Origin: a virus
Length of the DNA: 46,805 nt
Virus record (IMG/VR): IMGVR_UViG_3300025322_000050
Span: 1-46,805 of that record
Reading direction: 5' to 3' (one strand)
Shown here: positions 32,942 through 46,805 of the stretch, in pieces
Position numbering within the stretch: the first letter of the stretch is position 1
How the letters are laid out: each line of letters starts with the position of its first letter
The notes under the pieces: model-generated
The model's input: the letters and a program-made list of their open reading frames with translations, nothing else
Told to the model about the DNA's origin: nothing
Database searches by the model: none
Translations under genes and position numbers: made by a program

Positions 32942-33257
32942 TGCATTTAAAGCTCAGTTTATGGAACGTTGGAAAGATCATCCCATTGAAGATATCATTC
33001 AATCTCAAGTCCTACCATCGATCGCTAAGGTGGCTCAGATAAGAGATAATGGATCTCGGGACGACTATCAATTAGCAGCGGCTCGCATATTCCTCGACAA
33101 GGCACTCCCAGACAAGATCGAGATCCGGAAGCAGGTCAACATTACTCATGCCAACCTCAAGGATCTGATCCGGGCCAGGGAGATCATGGGCTCAAAAGAT
33201 TGTGGAAAAGATGTTGATAACTCTATTGTAGATACCGAAAATGGTGTAAGTGATTGA
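32865..33257 (+). CDS. Putative small terminase subunit
   Basis: 130 residues; the start is uncertain (ATG at 32865 overlaps the previous gene, ATG at 32913 is an alternative and neither has a strong site). The chain is helical with QLAAARIFLDKALPDKIEIRKQ, a pattern often annotated as small terminase in related phages. It lies two kb before the large terminase with a non-coding stretch between. The assignment is contextual. Confidence 0.45.
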   Translation: MKKIKKEEQFPTPIKQMESQNNYPLDAFKAQFMERWKDHPIEDIIQSQVLPSIAKVAQIRDNGSRDDYQLAAARIFLDKALPDKIEIRKQVNITHANLKDLIRAREIMGSKDCGKDVDNSIVDTENGVSD

Positions 33258-33564
33258 AATCATTGGAAACACAACTTAACATAATGTATATTATCAGACG
33301 TAAATCGTTCCACAATGCGAAACGATCTTGCAACCATATGATATCATTAGGGTTGTGGTATGATGCCTAATAACTATACGGGCATGTGTTGGTAGGATGT
33401 TGATATCTCCAGGTGTGACACAATGTCATGTTGAAGAATTGTGGATGACTGTGGAAACTCTGTGGAAGAAATGTGGAATTCTTTAGAGTCAAATCCTATT
33501 GCCGTCACGGTTGGTGGAGTCTATGATGACGTTGACTCCTAACGCCAGAGCGAAACGAGGTAAA
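33258..33564 (+). other. Non-coding stretch with hairpins and phased TGTGGA elements
   Basis: No supported gene. It contains hairpins at 33304-33326 (6-bp stem), 33416-33428 (5-bp stem, 3-base loop) and 33516-33539 (6-bp stem), and a cluster of TGTGGA elements. Origin, packaging or RNA roles are possible. Confidence 0.6.
33440..33477 (+). repeat. Four helically phased TGTGGA elements (DnaA-box-like)
   Basis: TGTGGA begins at 33440, 33450, 33461 and 33472, spacing 10, 11 and 11 bp, so all lie on one face of the helix. The first reads TGTGGATGA, one base from the DnaA box TGTGGATAA. Further copies are at 33201 (TGTGGAAAA) and on the other strand at 33308-33314. Confidence 0.7.
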
Positions 33565-33708
33565 ATGAATAAAATAATAGAAGATTTATATAATTTATTG
33601 ATGCATAATGATTATTGTGCGAGATACACATTATATCCAGAGAAGAAAGGTTGGAGTTATGATCAATTTAGAAAGTGGTATATGTTGAGGTTTAAGGTTG
33701 AACCATAA
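33565..33708 (+). CDS. Small protein within the non-coding region
   Basis: 47 residues from the ATG at 33565 with CGAGGTAAA upstream. AT-rich, helical, ending FRKWYMLRFKVEP. It is an island between the phased repeats and the structured RNA. Unknown function; the better GC-rich flanks differ in composition. Confidence 0.55.
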   Translation: MNKIIEDLYNLLMHNDYCARYTLYPEKKGWSYDQFRKWYMLRFKVEP

Positions 33709-33762
33709 TCAGGCATCGAAGTATTTGAAACGTTCAGAGATTAGAATACGCAATTATCTTAG

Positions 33763-33768
33763 TATAAT
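33763..33768 (+). promoter_or_regulatory. Candidate promoter (-10 box) of the large RNA
   Basis: A perfect TATAAT. The best -35 is TTAGAA, 16 bp upstream, which matches only three of six bases. A start would fall near 33775, ten bases before the outer stem of the structured RNA. Confidence 0.4.
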
Positions 33769-33774
33769 TAGGTA

Positions 33775-34232
33775 CTTGAGTAGAGAGTTGATTAAGTTAG
33801 GTAAAAATAAATGAACGTATTAGATAAAATTTCACTTTATGGTATGGCTCCGGTGTATAGCCAAAGGGGTAAAGATAAGAAGGCTCTGGAAAAAAGCCTG
33901 AATATGCGATTACATCCGAAAAGGCGTGCTCGGCGCCGGGACTCCAGCGCATCCACGAAGCCGTGGCAAGGTCAGAAGACCTCGGCAGACGTGGGACAAC
34001 ATGGCCAAGTGGTGATTCTGCGGAAGAAAGATTCGCAGAGTGAACCATTCTTTGAGAAAACAGCACCTTAACCGCCACTTAATCAATTCCCGGAGTGGGC
34101 TAACGGGGTGCAAGGGGTTGCAGGCGGAGGCCGTAAAGAAGAGGACGAGCGATATCGGATGTATGGAATAGGCCCCAATAGGAATTAGGGTTTCTAACGG
34201 GGTCGTACTGCGTTCAGACGCAGGGGCTTTTT
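33775..34232 (+). ncRNA. Large structured RNA candidate, about 450 nt
   Basis: The 13-base stretch 33785-33797 pairs with 34077-34089 (12 Watson-Crick and one G-U), closing about 305 nt. Inside are hairpins 33845-33849/33859-33863, 33881-33885/33895-33899, 33904-33908/33948-33952, 33953-33957/33962-33966, 33969-33973/33978-33982 and 34017-34022/34034-34039. After the domain come 34208-34212/34219-34223 and GCCCC 34172-34176 with GGGGC 34223-34227, followed by TTTTT. The region is GC-richer than its surroundings. An 86-codon frame at 33811-34071 crosses it but is basic and low-complexity with no good ribosome site. It matches no RNA class I can name; large phage RNAs such as ROOL or GOLLD are the nearest conceptual comparison. 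Confidence 0.6.
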
Positions 34233-34250
34233 AGGAAGGAGGCGATAGAG

Positions 34251-34307
34251 ATGTCGTGCGGGGGTTATGGGACCAAGAAGAAGGGGAGGAAGAAGGGGGG
34301 TAAGTGA
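34251..34307 (+). CDS. Tiny Lys-Gly-rich peptide
   Basis: 18 residues (MSCGGYGTKKKGRKKGGK) with AAGGAGG upstream, a very strong site. Similar tiny basic peptides are found near packaging genes of other phages, from memory. It could bind DNA or RNA. Next gene starts within its last codons. Confidence 0.5.
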   Translation: MSCGGYGTKKKGRKKGGK

Positions 34308-34477
34308 TAGATGATATGGGGTTCTTTGAAGAAGAAGCGGAAAGAATTATGGCTCTTATAAGGAAGCAGGAGATTACAGAAAAAGAGATCGACGAAATTA
34401 GATGGTATGCGCACACACACCGGAAAATAAGACCTTTATTAGAGGAGTATTTTTTAAGATTCCATTCTGGAGGGTAG
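34304..34477 (+). CDS. Small helical acidic protein
   Basis: 57 residues, GTG start overlapping the previous stop (ATG at 34316 is an alternative). EEEAERIMALIRKQEITEKEIDEIRWYAH is helical. Unknown. Confidence 0.5.
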   Translation: MIDDMGFFEEEAERIMALIRKQEITEKEIDEIRWYAHTHRKIRPLLEEYFLRFHSGG

Positions 34478-34479
34478 TT

Positions 34480-34614
34480 ATGAAAAGAATATACGAATTA
34501 TATGGCGGGAAAGATATTTTCTTTGGTAATATGATTAAATTCTCTATAAGCTTTTCTATTTTGTGTTTCTTGTATGGATTGTTTATGTGGTTTGTTTTGA
34601 AAGGGGGTAAGTGA
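34480..34614 (+). CDS. Small one-helix membrane protein
   Basis: 44 residues from the ATG at 34480 with GGAGGGTAGTT. Residues 19-40 form a hydrophobic helix (IKFSISFSILCFLYGLFMWF). Unknown. Confidence 0.6.
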   Translation: MKRIYELYGGKDIFFGNMIKFSISFSILCFLYGLFMWFVLKGGK

Positions 34615-34844
34615 TGTTCCGTAGACTTTTTGGTTGTATTCCAAAGCTAAAGAGCAGGGGGGAAGGTAAAATTCAAAATGGGGTTTATGCCTATCAGGAA
34701 CTTCTTGAATTCCAGGGGCAACCGGGCAATCATTATGTAGAGGAAACAATCCGGGATGGGCATTGTACGGTGGCTCAAGGTTGGTGGACTCCTACCCAAC
34801 TTATTGAGCATAAGAAGCTTATTAATTACAAACCAGTGGAGTAA
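34614..34844 (+). CDS. Hypothetical small protein
   Basis: 76 residues starting in a TGATG overlap. YAYQELLEFQGQPGNHY and HCTVAQGWWTPTQLIEHK are the memorable stretches. No family recognised. Confidence 0.55.
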   Translation: MFRRLFGCIPKLKSRGEGKIQNGVYAYQELLEFQGQPGNHYVEETIRDGHCTVAQGWWTPTQLIEHKKLINYKPVE

Positions 34845-34849
34845 AAAGA

Positions 34850-35077
34850 ATGGCTAAACATAGACGTCACACACCGATTGTTTCTGGGGCTCAGCAGGGA
34901 GCCATGGGGGTGGCTTATGCGGCTAAGAAGGGTAAGATGCCTATGTCTAAGCTGCGGGGGCCAGCCCGGAAGATGGCTAAGAGCATGCCTAAAGCCGAAT
35001 TGAAGCGACATTTGAAGGAAAGTAAAGGGAAGGATTTGCCTTGGAAGTCATCCGGAAGGGGAACGATAATCCGATAA
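34850..35077 (+). CDS. DUF3008-like small basic protein
   Basis: 75 residues, very basic. SGAQQGAMGVAYAAKKGK at 12-29 and a helix with KMAKSMPKAELKRHLKESKGKDLP fit the pattern of DUF3008-type proteins (SKAQQ...MG). Function unknown. Overlaps the terminase gene by 37 bases. Confidence 0.65.
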   Translation: MAKHRRHTPIVSGAQQGAMGVAYAAKKGKMPMSKLRGPARKMAKSMPKAELKRHLKESKGKDLPWKSSGRGTIIR

Positions 35078-36585
35078 CGGTTGAGTCAATCGATTCCGAG
35101 ATAGAGCGGATCCTGACCGATGAGAGGATCTATCTCTATGCGGAGTCTCTGAAACAGCCCTGGTCTATCATTAATAAGGGGCAGGGGGACTGGGTAAAGA
35201 CCTATGGAGGGGGTCCCGTTAAGCCATGCGCCCATGAATACCAAAGGTTGATGACTTATCCCTGGGAAAGTCCTGATAAGCTGGCACAGATGAAGGAGGC
35301 CATTTTCTATCTCTATTTTGCAGGGAATCAGGGAGGAAAGTCGGTCTGGGGAGGAAACTGGGTGCTGATGGAATGTCTCGGTATCCATCCTTTACAGGAA
35401 TTGGGAGTCAGGCCGAAGCCCCCGGTCCATTGGTGGATTGTGTCGCAGGAATTACCGGCAGAGGCTAAGATAGATACGGGGGAAGATTCAACTATCGTCA
35501 AAACGATCCGGGAATGGTGCCCTCCGAATGAGTTCAAAATGTATCGTAAAGACAAGATCATGACGATTAGGGGGAGCGTGATTAACTGGAAATCCCATGA
35601 TCAGGATAAGAGTAAGTTCAAGGGTGAAAGATTAGACGGGATATTCTGGGACGAAGAGCCCCCGAAGCCACTCTGGGAAGAAGGCGTTCCCCGCATCATG
35701 AAGAAAAAGGGTATTTTCCTTTTAGCCATGACCGCAGATTATGGCTCCTGGAGTTGGCAATTGCTCAAGAACAAGAAGGACCAGAAATATTATATCTGCG
35801 AAATGGACTCTTTTGAGAATCCGTTCATGGATACTGAGTTTAGAGCTAAATTGATGTCCTCGATGACAGAGGAGCAGTTGTTAATGCGCCGGTTCGGTAA
35901 GCATATCCAGTTTAAGGGAAAAGTCTTCCCCTTTGATTATGACCGAAATGTCGGGCGTCCTTTTGTCCCGAATAAAGAGACAAGCCAATACGTCATCATC
36001 GATTGGCACCCGGCAAAGCCTATCATCATTTCTTTTCTCTCAATCAATGCGAATAATATCTGGTATGTATTCAGGGAGAGTGTGATCGAAAGCCATGTGG
36101 TTGAAGCGGTGGCCCGGGAATACTATTCTAAGCTCACTTTCCCTGATTATAAGCTGCCAGTCGTTAAAACGATTATTGACCCCATTGCTTCCGTGGATCA
36201 GGTGCAGGACGGGAGAGTTAAGCCGAAATCGGTTGTGGATATGCTCAGAGATTTTGGGATCTCATGTAAGACGGGGAATCCCCACTTTGAGAGCGGTCAC
36301 GCCTTTCTCACAAGAAAGTTGAATTACAGGGAGTTATGGTTTGACCCTGATTGTAAGCTTCATATTGATCAATGGGATACCTGGGGGGCGAAGAGATACC
36401 AGAAAGGCAATCTCGAAGGCAATCTCCGGGATCAACTTGAAGTGGAGGGGAACGATACCTGCGTTAACATGATTTATGCTTATAACGAAAAAGCAAGATT
36501 CATGCCACAGGAGACGGAAGATTATTCTGATCGCTGGACTCCTCCAAGGGCAAGCACGGCAAGGATTTATGGTAGGCAAAGATAA
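35041..36585 (+). CDS. terL: Terminase large subunit
   Basis: 514 residues, TTG start, since no ATG in frame is closer than residue 71 and AAGGA lies before the TTG. Walker A is AGNQGGKS at 94-101, Walker B LDGIFWDEEP at 198-207, and the RNase-H-like nuclease has VIIDWHP near 318 and IIDP further on. It binds procapsid portal, cuts concatemeric DNA and pumps it in. The nuclease and ATPase domains both look intact. Confidence 0.88.
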   Translation: MEVIRKGNDNPITVESIDSEIERILTDERIYLYAESLKQPWSIINKGQGDWVKTYGGGPVKPCAHEYQRLMTYPWESPDKLAQMKEAIFYLYFAGNQGGKSVWGGNWVLMECLGIHPLQELGVRPKPPVHWWIVSQELPAEAKIDTGEDSTIVKTIREWCPPNEFKMYRKDKIMTIRGSVINWKSHDQDKSKFKGERLDGIFWDEEPPKPLWEEGVPRIMKKKGIFLLAMTADYGSWSWQLLKNKKDQKYYICEMDSFENPFMDTEFRAKLMSSMTEEQLLMRRFGKHIQFKGKVFPFDYDRNVGRPFVPNKETSQYVIIDWHPAKPIIISFLSINANNIWYVFRESVIESHVVEAVAREYYSKLTFPDYKLPVVKTIIDPIASVDQVQDGRVKPKSVVDMLRDFGISCKTGNPHFESGHAFLTRKLNYRELWFDPDCKLHIDQWDTWGAKRYQKGNLEGNLRDQLEVEGNDTCVNMIYAYNEKARFMPQETEDYSDRWTPPRASTARIYGRQR

Positions 36586-37545: not shown

Positions 37546-39265
37546 GCGTGACCAGTTAGCGATAGAAATGGTTAATGATCGTTTCATCTATGCGGATGAC
37601 GGGAATAAAGACTATCTGCGTAGAGCTGTTGAAAACGAAGAGCTTTACTGGAATTACATCGACGAAACCGATCATCCCTATCTTTCAAATATCTCTCTCC
37701 CGTGGCCCTACATTATTACGGAATCCTATCTCGGGAAGTGCATTCAAATCACGGCGGCTTCTATGCCCTATGTCCACGTCGTTGAAGATGATGACGACTC
37801 ACGATCAAAGGCAAGAAGGGTTGAAAGAGACGCCAATATGGTTCTCTACAAACAGAAATGGCCTATTCTTGCTTATAATGGCTATAAAGGTGGGTTCAAA
37901 CACGGCACTTTGTTTCTCTGGCTAAAACCTTGGGGAAGGTACAACGGGATAGAAATGCCTATCCTTGAAATCATGAACTTCTTTCATGTGAAGGTGAACC
38001 CCACGATTCTTAGTCTTGAAGATCCGGACGCTTATTTAGGGTACGAGACTTTTCTTCCTCTGGATTACTTCAATCAATTTAAAGACAACCCATTTTACAA
38101 AAATATTGATAAGATCGTTCCTCATCAGGGAGATATCTTTACCGAGGAAGAGCAAAGTATAAGGGCATTCAGATCGCTTCCTGGTTTGACAAGAGACAAA
38201 TATTCTAATTTAGTCAAGACCTGGCTCTATTGGGATTTTAAGAATTTCATTATTCTTACGGGCGGCGATAATGTTATCAGAGATGACAGGGAAAATTTCA
38301 TCGGACAGATTCCTGTAAAAGTAATAAAACCAATCCCTATCGAGAACGAATTCTACGGGATGTCGATCCTTGAAGAAGGAAAGGATCTTTTTGCTGAAGC
38401 CAATGAGAACAGGAATCAATTCAATGATGGTGCAAACTTGATGCTCAATCCTCAATATATCATCAATCGTGACGTCTGTGATTTAAAGAGAAGAAATATT
38501 GAAGCACGATCAGGTAATATCATCTGGACTTCAGATATCCCTAATAATGCTGTGGCTCCCCTGAAACAGGATTGGAATCTACTTGCCATGTGTCTTAAGC
38601 GCCAGGATTCAATCTATCAGGATATCATGAACTATTCCAACGCTTTTCCTCAGATGAGAGGCCAGCCGAGTCCGGGAGCTGCGGAAACAGCAACCGAATT
38701 TGTGGGGATGAGATCCGCAGGAGAATTGAGAAGCGATACCTATAATCTTCTACTCTCTATGATGGGAGTTGAAAGTATCGTAGAAGATATCGTTGAATAT
38801 AAGAGAAAATTCATGACCTTGCCTTCAAAGTTCTATTACTGGCCGGAGAGAAAAACTCAAATCACGATGCCTGAAGATTACGAAGGCGAGTTCACTTTTA
38901 AAGCTTTCTCCGCTTTCAGGGGTTTTCAGGAAATTGAGAGAAAGCAGTTGATAGAAGCTATGGCGATGGTATTTGGAGGAGCGAATGGAGCATTTCTTCC
39001 TTTTGTAACTCCAAAGACGGATGAATGGCTTGATCGACTCCTCGACTCATTTCCTCATATCCGATCACCAGAGCAGTTAAAGCTCTCTGAAGAAGAGAAA
39101 ATGATGGCTCAGGCACAGAGCATGATGCAGCAAATGATGCTTCCGTTTGCCGGAAAAGGCGGAAACGAACAGCCAGCAATGGGGGAAAAGGCCATGAGGC
39201 CGATGGAGACTGAACCCAACAGTCAAATGGGTTCCATGATCAGCAATGAGATGATGAGGCCCTAA
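37532..39265 (+). CDS. Portal protein
   Basis: 577 residues. Order (after terminase, before scaffold and capsid), length and composition fit portal proteins: LPWPYIITESYLGKCIQITAA near 60, PFYGMSILEEGKDLF-type wing helix near 270 (YGMSILEEGKDLFAEANENR), and a Met-Gln-rich C-terminus (QSMMQQMM). It makes the 12-fold DNA entry ring at one capsid vertex. Start overlaps the metallopeptidase gene by 14 bases. Confidence 0.78.
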   Translation: MPKNKRDQLAIEMVNDRFIYADDGNKDYLRRAVENEELYWNYIDETDHPYLSNISLPWPYIITESYLGKCIQITAASMPYVHVVEDDDDSRSKARRVERDANMVLYKQKWPILAYNGYKGGFKHGTLFLWLKPWGRYNGIEMPILEIMNFFHVKVNPTILSLEDPDAYLGYETFLPLDYFNQFKDNPFYKNIDKIVPHQGDIFTEEEQSIRAFRSLPGLTRDKYSNLVKTWLYWDFKNFIILTGGDNVIRDDRENFIGQIPVKVIKPIPIENEFYGMSILEEGKDLFAEANENRNQFNDGANLMLNPQYIINRDVCDLKRRNIEARSGNIIWTSDIPNNAVAPLKQDWNLLAMCLKRQDSIYQDIMNYSNAFPQMRGQPSPGAAETATEFVGMRSAGELRSDTYNLLLSMMGVESIVEDIVEYKRKFMTLPSKFYYWPERKTQITMPEDYEGEFTFKAFSAFRGFQEIERKQLIEAMAMVFGGANGAFLPFVTPKTDEWLDRLLDSFPHIRSPEQLKLSEEEKMMAQAQSMMQQMMLPFAGKGGNEQPAMGEKAMRPMETEPNSQMGSMISNEMMRP

Positions 39266-39633
39266 TGTTTGGAAGACCAAGAGGACGACCGAGAAAAGTT
39301 TTGACCCCCGAAGAGCAAAAGGTTGAGAAAGAATTTATAAGCCAACTTCATGAAGATATGCAGATGTATTCTGAGTTTGAGCAATTGAACCAGACTTCAG
39401 GAGGACAACGATTAATAAAGCTTCTCTCCGATTCCATAGACGATACGACTAAACACTGGTTTAAATTGCTTCTCCAGAGCGCAACCGAAGTAACGGGTGA
39501 ATCATTATTGAAGCAATTCTGTCTTATTAAAAGCAAGCATGATACGTTGCGTGCTTTTGAAGGTAAGATAAAGGATGCAACGAATCAAAAACTTGAGATC
39601 GAGAAAGCCTTGCTTAAACTGACGGAAGAGTAG
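39265..39633 (+). CDS. Small structural-cluster protein
   Basis: 122 residues, ATG overlapping the portal stop (TAATG). Basic start (MFGRPRGRPRK, like an AT-hook), then helical and charged. It may be a head-assembly helper or DNA-binding protein. Confidence 0.6.
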   Translation: MFGRPRGRPRKVLTPEEQKVEKEFISQLHEDMQMYSEFEQLNQTSGGQRLIKLLSDSIDDTTKHWFKLLLQSATEVTGESLLKQFCLIKSKHDTLRAFEGKIKDATNQKLEIEKALLKLTEE

Positions 39634-39666
39634 AAAAATCCAGGTCGTACGCCTGGTTCCCATTTA

Positions 39667-39709
39667 AGAAAAGCCTTCACTCGCGCGAGGGGTGAGGGCT
39701 TTTCTTTTT
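39667..39709 (+). terminator. Intrinsic terminator between portal and scaffold genes
   Basis: A 14-bp stem (39667-39680 with 39692-39705, one T-G pair) with an 11-base loop is followed by a T run. A smaller CCAGG/CCTGG hairpin precedes it at 39640-39656. It may adjust the amount of scaffold and capsid relative to terminase and portal. Confidence 0.85.
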
Positions 39710-39739
39710 GGGATAATCCAGACCATAGGAGGATATTTT

Positions 39740-40600
39740 ATGGCAATCACGGACAGCTCCACGGAAGGCAAATCTTCAGATGACCTGAAGGAAATGCTGG
39801 AGCAAACGGGTGATGAGGTGGTTTCCGAAGAGGGAGCCGAAACCGTAGAGACAGAGGAAGAAACCGGGGAAGAGGCTAAGCCTGAAGAGCCTCCCGAAGA
39901 GGAGCAACCGCAGGAAGCCAAGCCGAAGGAGAAAGCCGAAGAACTCTACAAACTGAAGGTCGAAGGGAAAGAAGAGGAATTACCGCTTCAAAAAGTGCTT
40001 GAATATGCCCAGAAAGGCCGCTATCTGGAAAGAGAGATAGCAAGGGTTAAAAAAGAGCGGGAAGAGTTGAGGAAAGGAAGGGAGACTCCGGGCGGAGTAA
40101 CCCCTTTCGGGAATATACCCCCTGAGAAGTTCGATGAATGGCTTGTCAAGGAACTCAACGATAGACCCGGAGCAACTCTTTTTAACCTCATGAATATGGC
40201 GATACAAGGAGATCGGGACACACAAAAGCGGGAGAAAACAGAAGATCGGGACTTTGAAATAGAAAAGCAGGATGAAACTGGTGATCTATGGAAGGAATTA
40301 AAGCCTTTGTATAGAGAATTTAAGGATATGGGATATAGTAGAAACGAAGCTATGGCAAAGGCTGAAGCCGACTTCTGGAAAGCGACCGCATGGAAAACAA
40401 ACCAACTTGCGTTACAAAAGGGCGAAAAGAAAGCACGTGATAAAATGAAAGCGGAAATGCCATCTGGCGGCAAGAGGACAGGCAAGCCTGCATCTGCGTC
40501 AGAAATGCCCTCCGACCAAGAACTTAAAGGCATGAAGGCGGGCGATATCCTGAAGCTTATGAAAAAGAAAGGAGCATTTAGAGAACATCAGGATTATTAA
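39740..40600 (+). CDS. Scaffolding-like protein
   Basis: 286 residues from the ATG at 39740 with AGGAGGATATTTT. The first 75 residues are Glu-rich (ETEEETGEEAKPEEPPEEE), then a helical region with many charged residues, then a Lys-rich end. Acidic, helical proteins directly before the capsid gene are typical scaffolds that shape the procapsid and then leave. Confidence 0.75.
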   Translation: MAITDSSTEGKSSDDLKEMLEQTGDEVVSEEGAETVETEEETGEEAKPEEPPEEEQPQEAKPKEKAEELYKLKVEGKEEELPLQKVLEYAQKGRYLEREIARVKKEREELRKGRETPGGVTPFGNIPPEKFDEWLVKELNDRPGATLFNLMNMAIQGDRDTQKREKTEDRDFEIEKQDETGDLWKELKPLYREFKDMGYSRNEAMAKAEADFWKATAWKTNQLALQKGEKKARDKMKAEMPSGGKRTGKPASASEMPSDQELKGMKAGDILKLMKKKGAFREHQDY

Positions 40601-40628: not shown

Positions 40629-41747
40629 ATGCCTACTGTAACCACTTCCAACCTATCAAAGGTTGTAAAAGTGTATTATGATAGATTGTTTCTTGAAAAA
40701 CTCGTTCCAAATCTTACCTTCCATCAACATGGTGTCAAAAAACCGCTCCCTCGTCATGAAGGGGATACCGTTTATTGGCACAGATGGAATCTCTTCACCA
40801 AAGGTCGTCTGATTTCGGAATCAGGTGCAGGGACCGCAAGGGGAATTTCCGCAAGCAGAATTTCCGCACAGCTTTTGATGATCGGTGATCATGCAAAGAT
40901 TACAACCTATATTGACATGGTTTCGATTTCAAGCGTTGTGCAGGGAGCCGTTGAGCTTTTTGCTGATTCTTCAGCCCTGACTATTGATTTCGCTCTTGGC
41001 AGGATGCTGCTCTGGAAAAAGACATCCGTATCGGCCACTCTCGAAGTTTCCTCAGCCAATGCCTATCTCGGAGCAGTGAACTATCTTTCAGCGATTGGAA
41101 CGCTTTCTGCGGCTCAATTCCAGGCTCCTCTCTGGGGTATCCAGTGGATGACCAGCAGAAGTCATGCGGCATCAGCATTGGATGGGGGGAACTCCGGGAC
41201 GTTATTCACTCCCAATATCATTCGCCAGGCCGTCCTTAAACTCCGGGTCAAAAATGCAATACCTTTTGAAGATGGCTATTTTCATGCCATTGCTCACCCG
41301 GATTTGATCAATGATCTCAGGGGAAGCTCTGCGTTTATTGATCTCAATAAGTATGTGGACAATATGATCTTTGCCCAGGGTAAACTTCCTACCGGAGGAG
41401 TCGGTGAAAGAAATCTCCGTGGAGTAATGGAAGGAGTTAAGTTCTATGAATCCACGGAAGCTCCCTACTGCACAGTTACAAATGGCGCAGCCGGAGCCTC
41501 GGCCCACGGTAACGGAAGATACTATTTTACCTTCCTTTTTGGGAAAAACTCCTACGGTGTCACAGATTTTGATTCGATGAAAGGCGATGGCGCCCAGATC
41601 ATCGTCAAGACCCCTGGACCGCAGGACACTTCTAACCCTTTGAACCTTTACAGCACGGTAGGCTACCGGGCCATCTTTACAGGCAAGATTCTAAATCCGA
41701 GTGCTTGCATGTGGCTTCTGAGTGGCAAACCTCTTGTAACTGGTTAG
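40629..41747 (+). CDS. Major capsid protein, N4-gp56 family
   Basis: 372 residues. The family pattern is clear at the start: YYDRLFLEKLVPNLTFHQHGVKKPLP, then WHRWNLFTKG, and LISESG. The HK97-fold core follows, ending with GYRAIFTGKILN. It forms the capsid shell. CAAGGAGGGATTTAA upstream gives strong translation. Confidence 0.85.
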   Translation: MPTVTTSNLSKVVKVYYDRLFLEKLVPNLTFHQHGVKKPLPRHEGDTVYWHRWNLFTKGRLISESGAGTARGISASRISAQLLMIGDHAKITTYIDMVSISSVVQGAVELFADSSALTIDFALGRMLLWKKTSVSATLEVSSANAYLGAVNYLSAIGTLSAAQFQAPLWGIQWMTSRSHAASALDGGNSGTLFTPNIIRQAVLKLRVKNAIPFEDGYFHAIAHPDLINDLRGSSAFIDLNKYVDNMIFAQGKLPTGGVGERNLRGVMEGVKFYESTEAPYCTVTNGAAGASAHGNGRYYFTFLFGKNSYGVTDFDSMKGDGAQIIVKTPGPQDTSNPLNLYSTVGYRAIFTGKILNPSACMWLLSGKPLVTG

Positions 41748-46551: not shown

Positions 46552-46805
46552 ATGCCAGATGAGACTTATAAAACTAAAATGGATATAAAAGGAATAATTG
46601 AATTCAATAAACATATTCCATTTGTTGAAAGGATAATTAATAGAGATCAATATCCAACAATACAATCAACCATAGATCCATCAAAAACAGCTACGCATGA
46701 AATGGCATGGGGAGAAACTGGAGGACAATTTTTTGTGTTTCCAACCTTAGATATAGTGAATGGAAAACTTATACCATTTAAAGATATTGGTATTGATCCT
46801 TTTTC
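46552..46805 (+). CDS. Conserved phage protein, 5' part (runs into the start of the window)
   Basis: Starts ATG at 46552 with GGGAGTGAATA upstream, and continues through the terminal repeat to end at 239, giving about 116 residues in total. MPDETYKTKMDIKGIIEFN opens the protein. See the entry for bases 1-239. Confidence 0.85.
   Translation, partial: MPDETYKTKMDIKGIIEFNKHIPFVERIINRDQYPTIQSTIDPSKTATHEMAWGETGGQFFVFPTLDIVNGKLIPFKDIGIDPF
46664..46805. repeat. Terminal direct repeat, right copy
   Basis: Matches bases 1-142 with one mismatch at 46679. Confidence 0.97.

Follow-up and report, generated by a model that had tools for sequence, protein, structure and literature searches.

A candidate structured leader RNA upstream of the late genes of an uncultured phage

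In phage lambda, the pR′/6S RNA/tR′ region specifies a late leader/attenuator RNA that is carried by the late-gene strand and ends at a terminator located before the late genes. Only few large structured RNAs are known from phages, most of them without an assigned function. Among them, ROOL and GOLLD are phage-borne structured non-coding RNAs that are often located near tRNA islands, many GOLLD RNAs being longer than 800 nt (PMC12286853). In phage ICP1, RNA-seq revealed an abundant non-coding transcript of about 800 nt, encoded by an orf-less space near the lysis cluster (PMC7567579). The present analysis delineates a candidate structured RNA element (33888-34235, + strand) ahead of the late genes of an uncultured phage. 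Like ROOL and GOLLD, this element is phage-borne, appears structured and non-coding, and has no known function; unlike them, it is only about 345 nt long, matches no Rfam family and belongs to a phage devoid of tRNA. If it is real and transcribed, it would add to this small set an orphan RNA located at a late-operon boundary, for which a defined fold and an attenuator model amenable to testing are available.

All positions given here are those of the window, i.e. the whole stretch of DNA that was analyzed, which corresponds to a single IMG/VR virus record (46,805 bases). The two ends of this record (1-142 and 46664-46805) show a direct overlap of 142 bp with 99.3% identity, which probably reflects a complete and circular genome of about 46.66 kb. 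No tRNA gene was detected by ARAGORN in the whole window. The late module, which includes the packaging and capsid genes, is carried by the + strand, as is the candidate element that precedes it, and comprises in order small ORFs, terL (35041-36585, Terminase_6N match), a gene encoding a portal-like protein, an unassigned ORF in the position of a scaffold gene and the gene of the major head protein. The first small gene after the element, as read from the sequence (34236-34308, + strand), is an 18-aa lysine/glycine-rich ORF with an ATG at 34252 and a Shine-Dalgarno-like AGGAGG, and the T-run of the element stops about 4 nt before this AGGAGG. The initial annotation described a large structured RNA (33763-34232) next to the terminase, between the presumed small and large terminase genes. 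This location holds only loosely, since terL begins about 810 nt after the end of the element, five small ORFs lying between them, and the presumed small terminase gene (terS) has no family match.

In the searches described below, the phage lineage appears deeply isolated. The genome has a mosaic look: the terminases closest to its terL are those of the NV1/PaP3 type and of actinobacteriophages (about 24%), and its major head protein (40629-41747) is nearest to gut and environmental phages (about 27-32%). Other features of the non-coding DNA were observed in this region and in the head operon. Four TGTGGA repeats (33440, 33450, 33461 and 33472), spaced by 10-11 bp, lie in the non-coding stretch 33440-33477 after the presumed terS and could possibly be a phased protein-binding site involved in packaging or replication. 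The 240 bases that follow the presumed terS (33251-33490) have a fold z-score of −4.1 on the − strand and are unremarkable on the + strand. Between the ORFs 39265-39633 and 39692-40600, a 17-bp hairpin and the T-rich stretch after it (39666-39706; window z of −5.3) form a putative, very strong terminator-like or processing site of the head operon.

In the computed fold of the element (MFE of −130.2 kcal/mol), the two ends are brought together by two long-range helices, P1 and P2. P1 pairs its 5′ strand AAAAAGCCT (A-run/GCCT, 33891-33899) with its 3′ strand GGGCTTTTT (34224-34232), with pair probabilities of 0.81-0.95, this 3′ strand doubling as the U-run of a listed terminator-like site. P2 is a perfect 9-bp pairing (probability 0.95) between TACATCCGA (33911-33919) and TCGGATGTA (34155-34163); it coincides with the listed inverted repeat I11 and surrounds a multibranched core (34001-34134) that is closed by ATGGCC/GGCCGT (probability 0.75) and includes a 10-bp hairpin (34015-34041, pair probability 0.96). 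Downstream of P2 are found (i) a 3′ hairpin (34171-34204, probability 0.99) made of GGCCCC/GGGGTC and of an inner stem TAGGAAT/GTTTCTA and (ii) a terminator-like hairpin CTGCGT/ACGCAG (34208-34223, probability 0.97) followed after 4 nt by a T5, the whole covering 34208-34232. Two long-range helices of at least 9 bp were obtained in 2 of 200 shuffles. Furthermore, the 3′ end has two competing states. In the first one, AGGCCCC (34170-34176) pairs with GGGGCTT (34223-34229), so that the U-run immediately follows a terminator-like stem. In the alternative one, GGCCCC pairs with GGGGTC (34199-34204) and the U-run with the 5′ A-run; this second state is preferred by 3.4 kcal/mol locally and by 7.2 kcal/mol in the full element.

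This anatomy differs from the one first proposed, most of which proved wrong, even though the initial annotation had rightly noticed a GC-rich, probably non-coding and foldable stretch between the presumed terS and terL. Its 13-bp closing stem (33785-33797 with 34077-34089) does exist as a complementarity (12 Watson-Crick pairs and one G-U) but has a pair probability of 0.00 throughout, and forcing it in the fold costs about 6 kcal/mol (−138.9 versus −145.2). Stems of at least 13 bp were found in 25 of 200 dinucleotide shuffles, and a second 13-bp stem occurs in the same region (33840/34210). This closing stem was thus rejected, because of its zero pairing probability and of its frequency in shuffles, which is that expected by chance. 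The first 50 bases (5′) of the interval proposed then fall inside a small ORF (33698-33814). As for its terminator-like end, the GCCCC/GGGGC and T5 near 34228-34232 are indeed present, but the closest hairpin is 4 nt away from the T-run and the GCCCC/GGGGC closure is one among three competing pairings.

With the boundaries 33888-34235, which were picked after folding and on which the significance depends, z-scores of −3.45 (0 of 100 shuffles as stable), −3.92 (1 of 200) and −4.44 (0 of 300) were obtained. Refolding with other energy sets gave identical energies and is not counted as independent support. The stretch could also be non-functional, i.e. a GC-rich sequence, intergenic or decaying and perhaps imported, that carries an ordinary terminator and whose fold energy would be a chance extreme picked out through boundaries chosen post hoc. 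Several results go in this direction: the interval first proposed reaches a z of only −2.25 (2 of 100 shuffles as stable), other windows of the genome, including coding ones, have z-scores of −3.0 to −5.3, low fold minima are also found upstream of many unrelated terL genes, and the − strand of the element has an equally extreme MFE (z of about −4.6). However, none of the 300 shuffles was as stable as the element, and its z is below those of all 134 same-size background windows. In addition, the ensemble is unusually well defined on the + strand only: its diversity is 43.6 versus 83.8 in shuffles and none of 300 shuffles had a centroid energy as low, whereas the ensemble of the − strand is ordinary. 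The element also coincides with the GC peak of the genome, the highest G+C among all 348-nt windows (0.552) being that of the window starting at 33931; the G+C of 33888-34235 itself is 0.537, in agreement with the GC-richer stretch reported initially. Given these data, we consider a non-functional stretch rather unlikely, while giving it real weight. Fixed-grid scanning of both strands ranked the 240-nt window 34081-34320 (+ strand) second of 390 (z of −3.7), and finely stepped 240-nt windows at other offsets gave modest z-scores (about −0.5 to −2.7). In Pseudomonas phage Lyrsu01 (L008, 1360-1741), the roughly 380 nt without annotation that immediately precede terL have a fold z of −5.6, calculated with few shuffles; their sequence is unrelated to the element.

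The element overlaps an 86-aa ORF (33811-34071, + strand), which could be a fast-evolving small gene coupled by an ATGA to the preceding ORF and followed by a terminator. Its start overlaps the stop of the 38-codon ORF 33698-33814 (ATGA at 33811-33814), its first 25 codons have a coding-like score similar to that of in-frame sequences, and orphan small genes are frequent in phages. By contrast, codons 27-86 (33889-34068) have a score of −0.224, which is lower than both the 5th percentile of the phage genes read in-frame (−0.056) and the off-frame median (−0.138); therefore, this part does not look coding. Furthermore, no relative of the 86-aa ORF was found in Pfam, in PHROGs or by tblastn on phages, and the fold extends 160 nt beyond its stop codon. 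A coding function for the whole ORF thus seems very improbable, and its second half is probably not a gene, which agrees with the initial view that no convincing protein is encoded here. In view of these first 25 codons and of the ATGA overlap at the start, a short gene running into the RNA is conceivable.

The initial annotation also invited comparison with phi29 pRNA, ROOL and GOLLD, but the covariance search gave a negative answer: cmscan of the region against all families of Rfam 15 returned no match at the gathering score, nor at E-values up to 5, and the search of 381 nt at E-values up to 10 returned only P31, whose score of 14.8 bits is below the gathering threshold of 40. Searches by blastn, tblastn, nhmmer and DNA patterns detected no homologue of the element, and neither did a covariance model run over 1.75 Mb of related loci; it should be emphasized that the reach of this model is small because it was built from a single sequence. 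The DNA search of phages and plasmids found nothing beyond one 30-nt chance match, and DNA patterns of the core and of the 3′ part gave, in viral and genome collections, only matches of seed length devoid of extension or common neighbours. Searches with terL, portal and DUF3008 queries retrieved a single fragment, 100% identical and belonging to the same virus, which begins at position 34715 of the window and therefore lacks the element; neighbour-gene queries also gave one remote DUF3008 match and no relative in the genome collection. Profile searches with terL and the capsid protein gathered 80 loci each, with at most 32% identity except for the fragment of the same virus; the element was absent from them according to blastn, nhmmer and the covariance model. 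These distant loci thus provided no homologue in which to look for the compensatory changes called for by the initial annotation. Two candidates were discarded: a stretch of 18 identical nt in a single record out of 49 (E-value of 0.001), judged to be due to chance, and the 2.2-kb unannotated gap preceding terL in the spring podovirus ctQWt234, which is filled with open frames.

These searches bear on the possibility that the element is a free-standing trans-acting phage RNA, excised or terminated at 34232, such as a scaffold, host-directed or packaging RNA. The paired 5′ and 3′ ends, the compact closed fold, the high GC content in an A+T-rich genome and the terminal U-run are typical of stable non-coding RNAs. 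However, neither an Rfam match, including to pRNA, ROOL and GOLLD, nor a homologue in the searched collections was found, and no promoter is supported. The TATAAT pointed out initially is present at 33763-33768, but it has no good −35 box and is not listed by the promoter scan. As this hexamer is common in the window (25 copies on the + strand and 27 on the other one) and none of the promoters of the scan uses the copy at 33763, a dedicated promoter at this position was rejected. A free-standing RNA is therefore unlikely, and it is quite improbable that the element is the first member seen of an undescribed class of trans-acting structured phage RNAs, with a size of about 345 nt and paired 5′ and 3′ ends, whose role could, for instance, concern packaging or assembly, or be directed against the host. 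No evidence was found for the packaging, scaffold or counter-defence roles that had been suggested for it.

Our best explanation, which we hold tentatively, is that the element would be a structured leader of the late operon, an orphan RNA whose alternative pairings resemble those of an attenuator. The region 33888-34235 would be included in a + strand transcript and would fold into a closed multibranched RNA, forming a non-coding leader ahead of the late genes (small ORFs, terL, portal and capsid genes). Its 3′ end could then switch between the terminator-like AGGCCCC/GGGGCUU stem before the U-run and the GGCCCC/GGGGUC hairpin combined with pairing of the U-run to the 5′ A-run. The RNA would most likely act in cis, by setting how much transcription or processing proceeds beyond it into the late genes, and a stable RNA could be left behind by the leader. 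The element is indeed located on the same strand just upstream of the late genes, terL and the portal gene following on the + strand. The consensus promoter scan places no promoter-like site in the interval 34232-35041; if the phage uses sigma-70-type promoters, the late genes would therefore be read through the element. The same scan provided no convincing upstream promoter for the leader. Several points speak against this leader: (i) the T5 is short, the hairpin is 4 nt away from the U-run and competing pairings are common in GC-rich sequences, and (ii) there is no homologue, the boundaries were set after folding, the finely stepped z-scores are modest and the MFE of the − strand is as unusual. 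Beyond the computed fold, competing pairings and position, we infer that the element would be transcribed, end at a working terminator and have a regulatory role. What endures of the initial interpretation, its anatomy aside, is the general idea of a structured non-coding RNA, which the fold energy, the ensemble, the GC peak and the lack of coding signal all favour. As it stands, the element can be regarded as a good candidate, with evidence from a single sequence.

Compared with known systems, the element shares with phi29 pRNA, an essential part of the packaging motor, a location in the neighbourhood of packaging genes, but it does not match the Rfam phage pRNA model and the large terminase of its phage is of the T4 type (Terminase_6N). 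Membership of the pRNA family, or of ROOL and GOLLD, which are characterized by a homo-oligomeric RNA cage, is unsupported. Like the ICP1 transcript, it is intergenic, without assigned ORF and found in a genome devoid of tRNAs, being known here from the DNA alone; the two differ in size and location, the ICP1 transcript being about 800 nt long and encoded close to the lysis cluster, and the element about 345 nt long and located before the late genes. The lambda late leader is likewise non-coding, carried by the late-gene strand and provided with a terminator-like end just before the late genes, an analogy that is functional only: no relation in sequence is shown, neither an antiterminator of the Q type nor a late promoter was identified in the present phage, and the candidate leader exceeds that of lambda in size and in degree of structure. 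Overall, the element would be best described as an orphan candidate within the structured non-coding RNAs of phages.
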